35,944 nucleotides of DNA from Campylobacteraceae bacterium (GTDB lineage: Bacteria; Campylobacterota; Campylobacteria; Campylobacterales; Arcobacteraceae), in NCBI GenBank assembly GCA_018662405.1, contig JABJGE010000024.1, positions 1-35,944 on the forward strand. Reading direction: 5' to 3'. Made by a program: the position numbers and the translations under genes. The notes under the pieces are model-generated. The model made no database searches. It was not told where the DNA came from and saw only the letters and a program-made list of their open reading frames with translations. This document shows positions 17,082 to 32,386 of the stretch, piece after piece. The stretch's first letter is position 1. Every line of letters begins with the position of its first letter.

Positions 17082-17505
17082 AAAATTCTCCACTGTGATA
17101 TTGCCACATATTATTATTTTTTAAAAACTTACTCTTTTCAATAAAAGATTCATCTTTTCCATTAACTGTTAACTGTACTTTAAATTTCACAAAAGACTCT
17201 TCATCTCCATCAATAAAATCTAATATTTCTAATTTTTCAAAATTTGAATATTTACAAAAATCTAAAATATCATTTGACCATGATAAAGTTTCTGGTGTAA
17301 AATCTGGATTGTTTATATGTGTTGTTTTGATAATATAGTCACTATTAGAAATAATATATGCTACATATCTTGACCTCATAAGTTGCTCTGAGGTTTTAGG
17401 AAAAGTACCTTTATGGTAAGGCTGACAACATTTTTTGTATTTATCACCACTACCACAAGGACAAGGAGAATTAACTCCTATCTTTGTTTTATTATGCTTC
17501 TGCAT
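17074..17505 (-). CDS. SEC-C motif protein, YchJ family
   Basis: A 143-residue protein with a zinc-binding SEC-C motif at the N terminus ([13 protein letters not shown], residues 15-27), followed by an NTF2-like alpha/beta domain containing [15 protein letters not shown], the YchJ/UPF0225 hallmark. Function in the cell is not established for the family. The motif resembles the SecB-binding tail of SecA. The start overlaps the typA stop by 14 bases and no strong ribosome site is visible, so translation is probably coupled to typA. The next gene overlaps by 8 bases. Confidence 0.88.
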
Positions 17506-19312
17506 TCTTTTTTTGTTTTGCTGCTCTTCTTCTCATTGAAGGATCTAATTCTCTTTTTCTAATTCTAATAGAAATAGGAGTAATCTCAACAATCTCATCA
17601 TCTTCAATCCACTCTAAAGCTAATTCTAAAGACATGTCTCTTTTAGGAATAATCTTAATAGCTTCATCAGCTCCAGAAGATCTTACATTTGATTGCTGCT
17701 TAGCTTTTACAGGATTAACATCAAGATCATTTTCTCTTGCGTGCTCACCTACTACCATACCACCATAAACTTTATCTTGTGGAGATATAAACATTTGACC
17801 TCTGTCTTGTAAACTAAAGATTGAATAAGCAACACCTTCACCTTGCTCCATAGAAACTAATGCACCATTCATTCTTGATGTTACACTTCCAGAGTATGGT
17901 CTAAATTCTAAGAATGAATGATTCATAACACCTTCACCTTTTGTAGAAGTTAAGAATTCATTTCTATATCCAATTAATCCACGTGCAGGAATTTCAAATT
18001 CAACTCTAGTTTGACCATTACCCATTGGTACCATATTTGACATTACGGCTTTTCTTTTACCTAATGTTTCAATTACACCACCAGAAAATTCATCTGGAAT
18101 ATCACATACTAAATGCTCAAATGGCTCCATCTTAACACCATCAACTTCTTTTACAATAACTTCAGGTCTAGAAATAGAGAACTCGAAACCTTCTCTTCTC
18201 ATATTTTCAGCAAGAATTGTAATTTGTAATTCACCTCTACCATTTACCTCAAATGCTGCATCACCTTTTGGATTATAGTTCATTGCAATATTAGTATTCA
18301 TCTCAAAATCAAGTCTTTCTTGAATTTTATTAGAAGTAACAAATTTACCTTCAGTACCAGCTAATGGTGAGTTATTTACTGCAAATGTTACAGATAAAGT
18401 AGGCTCTTCAATATGTAAAGGATCAAGAGGCATTGGGTTTGCAGGATCACAAAGTGAATCCCCAACATCAATTGTTTCAAATCCAGCAATAGCAACAATA
18501 TCACCATGACCAGCTTTATCAATATCTAATCTTTCAAGTCCTTTAAATCCAATAAGCTTAGAAACTCTACCTTTAACTTTCTCACCATCAGCTTTTACTA
18601 ATGTTACAGTTTCACCCATAGAAATTGTACCATTAAAGATTCTAGCAATACCAATTTTACCAATAAATGAATCATGTGATAAGTTAAATACTTGTAATTG
18701 AAGACCATTATCATCAGATCCTGTTGGTGCTGGTACTTCTTCCACGATTAAATCTAATAATGGAATCATATTTTCATTTGGCTCATCTAAAGACATTTTT
18801 GCATATCCATTTTTTGCTGCTGCATATACAACTTGGAATTCTAATTGCTCTTCAGTAGCACCCATTTGATCAAATAGGTCAAATACTTCATCAACAACTC
18901 TATCTGGTTCACCAGCAGGTTTATCAATTTTATTTACAACAACGATTGGTCTAAGACCTAATTCTAATGCTTTTTTAACAACAAACTTAGTTTGAGGCAT
19001 TACACCCTCTTGTGCATCAACAAGTAATAAAACAGAATCAACCATTTTTAAAACTCTTTCAACTTCTCCACCAAAGTCAGCATGGCCTGGAGTATCAATA
19101 ATATTAATTCTAGTATCTTTATAATCAATAGCAGTATTTTTTGCTAAGATTGTAATTCCTCTTTCTTTTTCAATATCATTACTATCCATCATTCTTTCTT
19201 CAGTTTCATCTCTCTCATCGAAAGTTCCAGATTGTTTTAATAGTTCATCAACTAGTGTAGTTTTACCGTGATCAACGTGTGCAATAACGGCAATATTTCT
19301 AATATCTCTCAT
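17492..19312 (-). CDS. typA: Ribosome-associated GTPase TypA/BipA
   Basis: Translational GTPase of the elongation factor family, active in 50S assembly and growth at low temperature or under stress (606 residues). G1 [10 protein letters not shown] at residues 10-19, the switch segment [10 protein letters not shown] near 50, G3 DTPGHADFG near 74 and G4 NKID near 128 are intact. The C-terminal half has EF-G-like domains and the BipA-specific [12 protein letters not shown] and GEGVAYS segments. AAGGA precedes the ATG. It heads a five-gene minus-strand string ending in yaaA. Two overlapping inverted repeats lie in its 5' leader. Confidence 0.97.
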
Positions 19313-19328
19313 TTTTATTCCTTCTTTT

Positions 19329-19361
19329 GCAATCTAAATTGCGTAATATACGCGGATTGTA
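19329..19361 (-). promoter_or_regulatory. typA promoter -10 box and leader hairpins
   Basis: On the minus strand TACAAT (19356-19361) lies 44 bases before typA. Just downstream come two perfect short repeats sharing two bases: GCGTA-ATA-TACGC (19341-19353) and GCAAT-CTAA-ATTGC (19329-19342). Only one can form at a time, so the leader could switch between structures. This is visible in the sequence but untested. Confidence 0.45.
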
Positions 19362-19422
19362 TCTAAAAATATATTAATTTATCATACCAATATAAGTTTG
19401 TAGAATTTTATATATCTTGTAG

Positions 19423-19428
19423 TATAAT
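19423..19428 (+). promoter_or_regulatory. -10 box of the thyX promoter
   Basis: TATAAT, 31 bases before the thyX start, with TTAGGA as ribosome site in between. Confidence 0.55.
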
Positions 19429-19458
19429 AAATTAAAATATAACATTAGGACTAAAACC

Positions 19459-20133
19459 ATGAATATTACACTTATGCAACACTCTTCTTTAGAAGTTTGT
19501 GCTCACGCAATTCGTACTTGTTGGCAAAGTTTTGACAATAGTGATGATGGTGGAGAAAAAGATAAAGATCTAATAAATAGAGTTGGAAATAAGTTTAAGC
19601 ATGCATCTACTCTAGAGCACTTAACATATACATTTTATATTGCTGGTGTATCACGTGCACTATTACAAGAATTAGCTCGTCATAGAATGGCAAGTCCTAG
19701 TGTAAAATCTACTCGATATACTTTAAAAGAATTAAAAGATGAAATATCTTTTACTGATGGTATGAGTGCGGTTGAATTAACTGAAAAATATACAAATAAA
19801 GATGAAGTATACGCTGATAAGCATATGGTAAGAGCATCTAAATATCTTGTATGGACAGATGAACTTATTGTTGATTTCTCTTCTATTGTTGCATTAGAAA
19901 ATTTAAGATTAGCATTGGTATCTGGTATTTCAAATGATAAAGCAAAATTTTGTCTTCCAGAATCTTATAAAACAGAATTAACTTGGACAATAAATGCTAG
20001 AAGCTTACAAAATTTTATTGCACTAAGAAGTGCAAAAGCTGCATTATGGGAAATTAGAGATTTAGCAGATGCTTTATATCAAGCACTTCCTTCAGAACAT
20101 CAATATCTATTTAATGATTGTATAGCTAAATAA
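19459..20133 (+). CDS. thyX: Flavin-dependent thymidylate synthase ThyX
   Basis: Makes dTMP from dUMP using methylenetetrahydrofolate and FAD, an alternative to ThyA that spares dihydrofolate reductase (224 residues). The ThyX signature RHR-x7-S-x-RY is present as RHRMASPSVKSTRY at about residues 74-87, and SFDNSDD plus FKHASTLEHLTYTFYI form the upstream family segment. The ELTWTINARSLQNFIALR segment near residue 175 carries the NxRxLxNFxxLR pattern of the second FAD/dUMP region. The stop shares one base with the start of the next gene. Confidence 0.97.
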   Translation: MNITLMQHSSLEVCAHAIRTCWQSFDNSDDGGEKDKDLINRVGNKFKHASTLEHLTYTFYIAGVSRALLQELARHRMASPSVKSTRYTLKELKDEISFTDGMSAVELTEKYTNKDEVYADKHMVRASKYLVWTDELIVDFSSIVALENLRLALVSGISNDKAKFCLPESYKTELTWTINARSLQNFIALRSAKAALWEIRDLADALYQALPSEHQYLFNDCIAK

Positions 20134-28273: not shown

Positions 28274-28332
28274 GCAAATTTTCAAATATAATTAAATATA
28301 TACCCTTAAGTTAAGCTTTAATAAAATTTCGA

Positions 28333-28338
28333 TATAAT
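28333..28338 (+). promoter_or_regulatory. -10 box of the rpsB-tsf promoter
   Basis: Perfect TATAAT, about 154 bases before rpsB. The transcription start near 28345 leaves a leader of about 147 bases. Confidence 0.6.
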
Positions 28339-28343
28339 CCAAA

Positions 28344-28476
28344 TCCTTGTAAAAAAGGAAACTCACATGTATCAATTCTAAAAAGGGTTGTGTATTATAA
28401 ATACATGAATGGATGCAGAGGTAGATATTATGATTAATATCTAAATAAACCCAAAAATTATCTAGTCAAAAGACTA
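28344..28476 (+). promoter_or_regulatory. Structured 5' leader of rpsB, candidate ribosomal protein S2 control element
   Basis: The leader packs five perfect stems in 133 bases. A 5' hairpin TCCTT/AAGGA (28344-28348, 28355-28359). A closing stem GGGTT/AACCC (28385-28389, 28448-28452) enclosing two hairpins, TGTATT-ATA-AATACA (28391-28405) and a 9-bp stem TAGATATTA-TGAT-TAATATCTA (28422-28443). Last, TAGTC-AAAA-GACTA (28463-28476) just before the AAGG ribosome site. The middle part is a three-way junction with a 15-base purine-rich joint (28407-28421). Leaders of rpsB commonly mediate feedback by S2. No known motif is recognised here. Confidence 0.55.
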
Positions 28477-28491
28477 AAAGAAGGACATATT

Positions 28492-29268
28492 ATGGTTACT
28501 ATGAAAGACCTATTAGAATGTGGTGTACACTTTGGACACCAAACAAGAAGATGGAATCCAAAAATGAAAAAATACATTTTCGGAGTAAGAAAAAATATTT
28601 ATATTATTGATTTACAAAAAACATTAAGATACTTTAGATTTACGTATAATCTTGTAAGAGATGCTGCTGCTGAAGGTCAAACAATGATTTTTGTAGGAAC
28701 TAAAAAACAAGCAAGAGAAGCAATTAAAAAAGCTGCTGAAGATTGTGGTATGCCATATGTAAACAACAGATGGTTAGGTGGAATGTTAACAAACCACGAT
28801 ACAATCAAAAAAGGTCTAAGAAAATTAGAAATCATCAAAAAGATGAGAGAAGAAGGTCAAATGGATCTTTTAACTAAAAAAGAAGCATTAATGCTTACAA
28901 GAAAAGAAGCTAAATTAGAGTCTTACCTTGGTGGTATTAAAGAGATGAATAAAATGCCTGATATGATGTTTGTAATTGATGCAGTTAAAGAAAAAATTGC
29001 TATTTTAGAAGCTAGAAGATTAGGAATTAAAGTTTATGCTCCATTAGATACAAACTGTGATCCTGATTTAGTAGATTTCCCAATTCCAGGAAATGATGAT
29101 GCAATTAGATCTGTTCAATTATTCTGTAACGAAATGGCTGCAGCAATGAATGAAGGTAAAGCAGCAAGAGCTGAAGCTAATGGTGAAGAAGAAGTTGCTG
29201 TTGAAGTTTCTGCAGAAGAACAAGCTGAAGTAGTTGCGGAAGCTGTAGCAGAAGAAGAGTCTAAGTAA
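28492..29268 (+). CDS. rpsB: 30S ribosomal protein S2
   Basis: Ribosomal protein of the small-subunit head-body junction, needed for S1 binding (258 residues). The family start [25 protein letters not shown], given here as [15 protein letters not shown], is clear, as are [11 protein letters not shown] near residue 90 and the signature around [19 protein letters not shown] near 190. The last 35 residues are an acidic, alanine- and glutamate-rich tail beyond the conserved core. AAGG lies 7 bases before the ATG. It shares its last base with the tsf start, the usual S2-Ts gene pair. Confidence 0.98.
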
Positions 29269-30320
29269 TGGCTGGAGCAACTCCTAAATTAATTAAAGAA
29301 TTAAGAGGATTATCTGGAGCTGGACTTAGTGACTGTAAAAAAGCACTAAATGAATGTGAAGGTGATATTGAAAAATCAATGGCATTCTTAAGAGAATCAG
29401 GACTTGCTAAAGCTGCTAAAAAAGCTGGTAATGTTGCTGCTGAAGGTTTAGTTTCTATTTTAATTAATGAAGATTTTACAAAAGCTACGCTTGCTGAAAT
29501 TAATTCTCAAACAGATTTTGTTGCTAAGAATGATGATTTTATCAATCTTAAAAATGAAATTACTGCTCATGTTCAAGTAACAGGTTCTACTACTACTGAA
29601 GAACTTAATTCAACTACTATTAATGGTACTAACTTTGAAGAGTATTTAAATGGTAGAATTGCTATTATTGGTGAGAATATTGTTGCTAGAAGAATGGCTA
29701 CAGTTTCAACTGATACTGGTGTTGTAAATGGTTATGTTCATACAAATGGTAAAGTTGGTGTTATTTTATCTGCTACTTGTGCTCCTGAAGCAAAAGAAAA
29801 AGCAGCAGCACTTCTTAAATCATTAGGTATGCATGCAGCTGCTATGAAACCATCTGTAATCTCATATGAAGATTTAGATCCTGAGTTTGTAGAATCTGAA
29901 AATAAAGCAATTATTGCTGATATTGAAAAAGAGAATATTGAGTTACATAGACTTGGTAAACCTGAGAAAAATATCCCATTATTTGTATCAAAATCTCAAT
30001 TAACTGAAGAAGCATTAGATGCTGCTAAAGCTGACATGAGAACTGAATTACTTGCACAAGGTAAACCAGAAAAAATTATTGATAATATCTTAAAAGGTAA
30101 AATCGAAAGATTTATTGAAGATAATACTCAATTAGATGCAACTCATGCATTATTAACTCAAAAATTTGTAATGGATGACAGTAAAACTGTTGCTCAAGCA
30201 ATTGCTGATGTTGACGCTTCAATTAAATTAGTAGACTACATTAAGTTTGAACTTGGTGAAGGTATTGAAAAAGTTGAAGAAGACTTTGCTGCAGAAGTAG
30301 CAGCTCAAATGGGTAAATAA
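29268..30320 (+). CDS. tsf: Elongation factor Ts
   Basis: Nucleotide exchange factor that releases GDP from EF-Tu (350 residues, longer than the 283 of E. coli, as in relatives). The UBA-like N-terminal domain has LIKELRGLSGAGLSDCKKAL, and the core has EINSQTDFVAKND near residue 78, whose TDFV segment contacts the EF-Tu G domain. GKVGVILS near 161 and the coiled-coil region toward the C terminus are also visible. It is translated right after rpsB with a one-base overlap. Its stop codon lies inside a terminator hairpin. Confidence 0.97.
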   Translation: MAGATPKLIKELRGLSGAGLSDCKKALNECEGDIEKSMAFLRESGLAKAAKKAGNVAAEGLVSILINEDFTKATLAEINSQTDFVAKNDDFINLKNEITAHVQVTGSTTTEELNSTTINGTNFEEYLNGRIAIIGENIVARRMATVSTDTGVVNGYVHTNGKVGVILSATCAPEAKEKAAALLKSLGMHAAAMKPSVISYEDLDPEFVESENKAIIADIEKENIELHRLGKPEKNIPLFVSKSQLTEEALDAAKADMRTELLAQGKPEKIIDNILKGKIERFIEDNTQLDATHALLTQKFVMDDSKTVAQAIADVDASIKLVDYIKFELGEGIEKVEEDFAAEVAAQMGK

Positions 30321-32177: not shown

Positions 32178-32235
32178 TATAGCCTTAAATAACATTAAGT
32201 TAATATGCCATACTTTAAAAGATAAGCATTGAGAG

Positions 32236-32241
32236 TATAAT
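32236..32241 (+). promoter_or_regulatory. -10 box of the SRP RNA gene
   Basis: TATAAT about 16 bases before the inferred 5' end of the SRP RNA. Confidence 0.6.
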
Positions 32242-32256
32242 AAATTTATACTTTGA

Positions 32257-32364
32257 ATGCTTCTCTTTAGACCTTTGCAACTATATTTAAGAGCAACGCC
32301 CCAGGATGGGAACATAGCAAGGCACTTTTTTATATGGTGTGTTTAGGTATCTGGAGAGGAGTAC
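32257..32364 (+). ncRNA. ffs: Signal recognition particle 4.5S RNA
   Basis: Small SRP RNA that binds Ffh and targets nascent membrane proteins. The apical domain is diagnostic: CAGG-ATG-GGAA-CAT-AGCA at 32302-32319 gives the symmetric Ffh-binding loop under a GGAA tetraloop, closed by GCC/GGC (32298-32300 with 32321-32323). Further paired segments are CTATAT/ATATGG (32281-32286, 32332-32337) and a 12-bp terminal helix CTTCTCTTTAGA/TCTGGAGAGGAG (32260-32271, 32350-32361). The whole folds as one long hairpin of about 108 bases without an Alu domain. The exact ends are estimated from the terminal helix and promoter. Confidence 0.92.
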
Positions 32365-32386
32365 TTTTAGATTAAATCTAAAAAGT
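32363..32386. terminator. Inverted repeat between ffs and the HTH gene, possible bidirectional terminator
   Basis: ACTTTTAGAT (32363-32372) and ATCTAAAAAGT (32376-32386) pair around a TAA loop with one unpaired A. It spans the stop codon of the minus-strand HTH gene and the end of ffs. There is no clean T run on either strand. Confidence 0.35.

Follow-up and report, generated by a model that had tools for sequence, protein, structure and literature searches.

The rpsB-tsf locus and the elements of its leader

The window, a 35,944-nt stretch of DNA from a Campylobacteraceae bacterium, carries the genes rpsB and tsf and belongs to a 1.31 Mb genome; the closest named relatives of this genome are Arcobacteraceae. 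The rpsB stop and the tsf start overlap as TAATG, and translation of the two genes is likely coupled because of this overlap. Immediately 5' of the gene pair lies a structured leader (Table 1). The transcript probably begins about 7 nt downstream of a TATAAT that is absent from the consensus promoter-scan listing and has no -35 box. A terminator-like site, as expected for transcription attenuation, was looked for in the rpsB leader and none was found.

Table 1. Features of the rpsB-tsf locus, in window coordinates
Feature	Position	Strand	Basis
TATAAT, probable -10 element	28333-28338	+	sequence; inference
P0, 5'-terminal hairpin UCCUU/AAGGA	28344-28359	+	relatives have hairpins of other sequence here
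Conserved CUCACA immediately 5' of P1	28362-28367	+	alignment A1; C-C-A near invariant
P1 5' strand, UGUAUC	28368-28373	+	six of six pairs covary with 28412-28417; 100% of cells paired
J1, AAUUCUAAAAA	28374-28384	+	conserved among relatives
UUCU within J1 (UCCU in most relatives)	28376-28379	+	possible Shine-Dalgarno pairing, suggestive only
Pseudoknot helix 5' strand, GGGUU	28385-28389	+	same helix covaries independently in the Sulfurimonas-type variant
P3 hairpin, 7 bp, loop AUA	28390-28406	+	P3 covariation in A1
P1 3' strand, GAUGCA, within the 15-base joint of the preliminary description	28412-28417	+	covariation with 28368-28373
GAGG after P1 (E. coli: GGAGG)	28418-28421	+	nearly invariant in alignment; E. 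coli comparison
P4, inserted 9-bp hairpin, between GAGG and AACCC	28422-28443	+	hairpins of relatives
Pseudoknot helix 3' strand, AACCC	28448-28452	+	homologous strands in relatives
P5, hairpin UAGUC/GACUA directly 5' of the Shine-Dalgarno	28463-28476	+	covaries within the window's clade
Shine-Dalgarno AAGGA	28481-28485	+	sequence; 6 nt 5' of the AUG at 28492
rpsB, ribosomal protein S2	28492-29268	+	PF00318, E 1.7e-95
tsf, elongation factor Ts	29268-30320	+	PF00889, E 5.6e-57

A preliminary description of this DNA had drawn five stems between the promoter and rpsB, and P0, GGGUU/AACCC, P3, P4 and P5 are all present at about the places where it put them. P0 varies in sequence among relatives. 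P4 is present only in some Arcobacteraceae, and hairpins of differing sequence occupy its position in loci L024, L031, L048, L210 and L233. P5 covaries within the clade, where it reads GAGC/GCUC, GGCAA/UUGCC, GUC/GAC or GGGC/GCCC. P4 and P5 are lineage-specific, peripheral additions.

In some Arcobacteraceae (L013, L037, L221 and L227), up to about 90 nt of extra sequence is inserted between the Shine-Dalgarno and the 3' strand of the pseudoknot helix. The inserted sequence (GUUCUCUUUAGGUUUUUGCUUCUUUUUA...) is shared among these loci and resembles a small repeat element.

The leader folds more stably than dinucleotide shuffles, with z -3.0 for 28320-28500 (2 of 200 shuffles) and z -3.9 for 28344-28476. 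The claim that it pairs far more than other intergenic gaps holds only in part, as two gaps fold on par with the leader or more strongly: 19313-19458 (z -4.2) and 32178-32366 (z -3.8). The former lies between the divergent genes 17492-19312 (- strand) and 19459-20133 (+ strand) and folds strongly into nested AT-rich arms (z about -4). The latter holds a small bacterial SRP RNA (RF00169, 49.7 bits) at 32264-32360.

The pseudoknot core and its distribution

When the leaders of relatives are aligned, the best-supported and most constant helix is P1, UGUAUC 28368-28373 with GAUGCA 28412-28417. It is also the helix that the single-sequence minimum free energy fold favours over GGGUU/AACCC. The core is an H-type pseudoknot that encloses a hairpin, and not a plain three-way junction, because P1 crosses the GGGUU/AACCC stem. 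The three-way junction first proposed for the leader was thus built of real stems in an incomplete topology, from which P1 was missing. The elements of the core follow the order CUCACA - P1 - AAUYCU - GGGUU - P3 hairpin - P1' - GAGG - AACCC.

Covariation was measured in A1, for which MAFFT aligned 51 diverse leaders, the window not among them. In A1 every cell of P1 is paired (100%), and each of its six pairs shows two-sided changes; P3, which also shows them, is paired in 94% of cells. For the pseudoknot helix the figure is only 78%, since in some rows MAFFT places its 3' strand one base out of register. The whole structure has a covariation score of 0.73; shuffles give 0.28, and slid versions no more than 0.22. 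A tree-based null modelled on R-scape was computed on 170 leaders. Under it, the six P1 pairs are the top six of 1711 column pairs (E about 0), and two pseudoknot pairs rank next (E 0.3 and 0.9). The pseudoknot helix varies little in the window's own group, where its covariation over all column pairs is marginal.

These figures depend in part on how the rows were obtained. The parser that cut the in-register rows has a preference for pairing, so the percentages paired in those rows are biased upward. The same parser picked the stretches given to MAFFT, which aligned the columns regardless of pairing, and it partly selected the pseudoknot strands. Together with the conservation of the joint 28407-28421, the strong covariation bears out the earlier proposal of a conserved, structured rpsB-tsf leader.

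The distribution of the leader was followed with R1, a covariance model built without the window. R1 matches the window leader at 62.6 bits (E 1.2e-16), its sole match in the window, and finds no second copy in the whole genome (next hit E 3.7). In the order, 106 of 120 genomes and 49 of 55 genera have a match, nearly always one each, and match positions agree with rpsB positions where both were searched. Half of the misses (7/14) fall in family f16, several genomes of which carry a divergent variant. R1 was also run on loci from other phyla and E. coli, and 18 of the 32 matched directly 5' of rpsB, the E. coli t44 locus included. The known S2 leader is thereby extended from scattered mentions to almost an entire order within Campylobacterota, the one that includes Campylobacter and Helicobacter.

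The Sulfurimonas-type variant, carried by Sulfurimonas and its relatives, keeps the topology of the leader with other letters: GUUAGU/ACUAAC, GUUGGU/ACCAAC, AUCAGU/ACUGAU, AUCGGU/ACCGAU and ACUGGU/ACCAGU. In a plain MAFFT alignment every cell of its pseudoknot helix is paired (100%) and 4/6 pairs show two-sided change, whereas slid controls reach at most 63%. The Campylobacterota leader makes a clean covariation case for the pseudoknot.

Loci of the Sulfurimonas type (L053, L056, L062, L129 and others) lie about 40-110 nt 5' of rpsB, and CAAAG or CGAAG replaces GAGG in them. Most genomes of family f16 have no match to the main model. Sulfuricurvum-type leaders (L066, L072, L074, L075, L078, L081, L084 and L202) have UUCUCGUGC ... 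AAACGAAGAAC in common, along with a bulged long-range pairing, and are possibly a third variant.

Probable function and a possible route to the ribosome binding site

In E. coli, repression of rpsB-tsf by S2 through the rpsB leader is already known (PMC10931766, PMC2704228). There the leader mediates translational repression of the two genes by S2 in excess, with help from S1 (PMC10931766). The leader in the window is very probably the Campylobacterota form of this autoregulatory leader. S2 present in excess of 16S rRNA would bind the leader and stabilise its fold, and fewer ribosomes would load on rpsB. Expression of tsf, the start of which overlaps the rpsB stop, would fall along with it.

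Other accounts of the stems fare less well. It is barely conceivable that they are chance hairpins in AT-rich DNA. P0, P4 and P5 are lineage-specific, which would fit, but this account is refuted by P1 covariation and by conservation across the order, and the folding z-scores and the R1 match also speak against it. An mRNA stability element or a ribosome standby site in place of feedback, or a response to another ligand such as S1 or EF-Ts, is unlikely. Hairpins at the 5' terminus and near the Shine-Dalgarno are typical of stability elements, and S1 is needed together with S2 in E. coli (PMC10931766). Stability elements, however, need no conserved pseudoknot core, and the near-invariant loop bases of this core are common to leaders from E. 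coli through Arcobacteraceae.

A sub-hypothesis of S2 autoregulation, and compatible with it, concerns how the fold would reach the ribosome. The final step, which is not established, would be pairing of J1 (UCCU/UUCU) with the Shine-Dalgarno on the side of the pseudoknot helix, as an extension of the pseudoknot, so that the pseudoknot would act as an on-off switch for translation of rpsB. This is a tentative proposal and somewhat doubtful. In nearly all main-type leaders J1 contains UCCU or UUCU, and pairing of this element with AGGA is possible in 99.9% of cells. No column pair between leader and Shine-Dalgarno scores higher than the flanking pair K6/s-2, which stands above its own null (p about 0.01); shifted registers fail to do so. 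Two groups have changed both sides, from UCCUU/AAGGA to UCCUA/UAGGA. Against this, the idea is post hoc and was formed on the same data, and E is about 7 over all pairs. The test of total pairing gives p near 0.05 in the first and second sets but about 0.5 in the combined set. The flanking pair is broken in the large UCCUGG group and in several Campylobacter, the Sulfurimonas-type variant lacks UCCU, and four pairs at most are possible in the window. The pairing is left as suggestive because significance is lost in the combined test and on correction for all pairs. An extension of P1, pairing J2-J5 with the bases before the P1 3' strand, was also tested and was not significant.

How repression in E. 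coli acts on the ribosome binding site, which lies outside the operator, is called unclear (PMC10931766). If J1 does pair with the Shine-Dalgarno, S2 binding would close the ribosome binding site through J1, the pseudoknot would be wired directly to the site, and the step that is unclear in E. coli would be filled. The idea offers a testable route by which S2 could close the site.

Relation to known S2 leaders

The preliminary description held that the leader does not look like the enterobacterial one and may be an undescribed Campylobacterota class. A class specific to Campylobacterota and unrelated to the known S2 leader is quite improbable. Its sequence has diverged far from that of E. coli, and no related Rfam family matches the window leader even at E 10. 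Nevertheless, the order of elements and the pseudoknot are those of E. coli t44, R1 and the Rfam t44 model each recognise the other's loci, weakly but at the same position, and a 2009 publication already reported the motif, 'a few Epsilon-' members included (PMC2704228). In the window, the known rpsB (S2) leader is present in its Campylobacterota form, a new example and not a new class. Among the papers searched there was no study of a Campylobacterota-specific S2 leader. The ribosomal protein gene leaders of Eckert and Weinberg 2020, which show covariation, are of the same functional kind, and the table rows examined there include no S2 leader and no Epsilonproteobacteria (PMC7247131).

Searches with Rfam leave the leader outside family RF00127 (t44/tff). 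At gathering and relaxed thresholds, the only match in the window is the SRP RNA elsewhere, with chance matches at the leader. Up to E 10, RF00127 matches nothing in the window, its 44-bit gathering score not being reached. Against four Campylobacterota leaders, RF00127 matches at full length with 22-28 bits, below the gathering score. It reaches the threshold in none of the Campylobacterota loci tested; the t44 model misses the Campylobacterota leader. By Rfam's own threshold the leader is not a member of RF00127, yet it is a member of the rpsB motif.

That motif was described by Meyer et al. 2009 as pseudoknotted and present in several phyla, 'a few Epsilon-' proteobacteria among them (PMC2704228). 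Like the window leader, it lies 5' of rpsB and has a P1 capped by a junction, which in the motif holds a variable P2 and P3 (PMC2704228). Here, P1 (100% of cells paired) closes a junction with P3 (94%), and the pseudoknot of the motif, between J2-3 and sequence 3' of P1, corresponds to GGGUU/AACCC in the window and to homologous strands in relatives. In contrast to the motif, P1 is short (6 bp), P2 is missing with the short conserved single strand AAUYCU in its place, and the window's group adds P4 and P5.

The E. coli leader 5' of rpsB reads CACACGUAUC ... GGGGU ... GGAUACGUGGAGGCAUAACCCC and is annotated as t44/tff, with an RF00127 match. Within it, CACACGUAUC..GGGGU..GGAUACGUGGAGG..AACCCC is equivalent to the core in the window. 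Both leaders have CACA followed by P1 (CGUAUC/GAUACG in E. coli), GGAGG (here GAGG) after P1, and the pseudoknot strands, GGGGU/ACCCC in E. coli. R1 scores the E. coli leader at 16 bits (E 0.046), a weak match. E. coli t44 differs by a long extra stem above P1, and the RF00127 model as printed is without the pseudoknot. The order of elements, together with the weak mutual matches of the two models, argues that the leader in the window and E. coli t44 are homologous.
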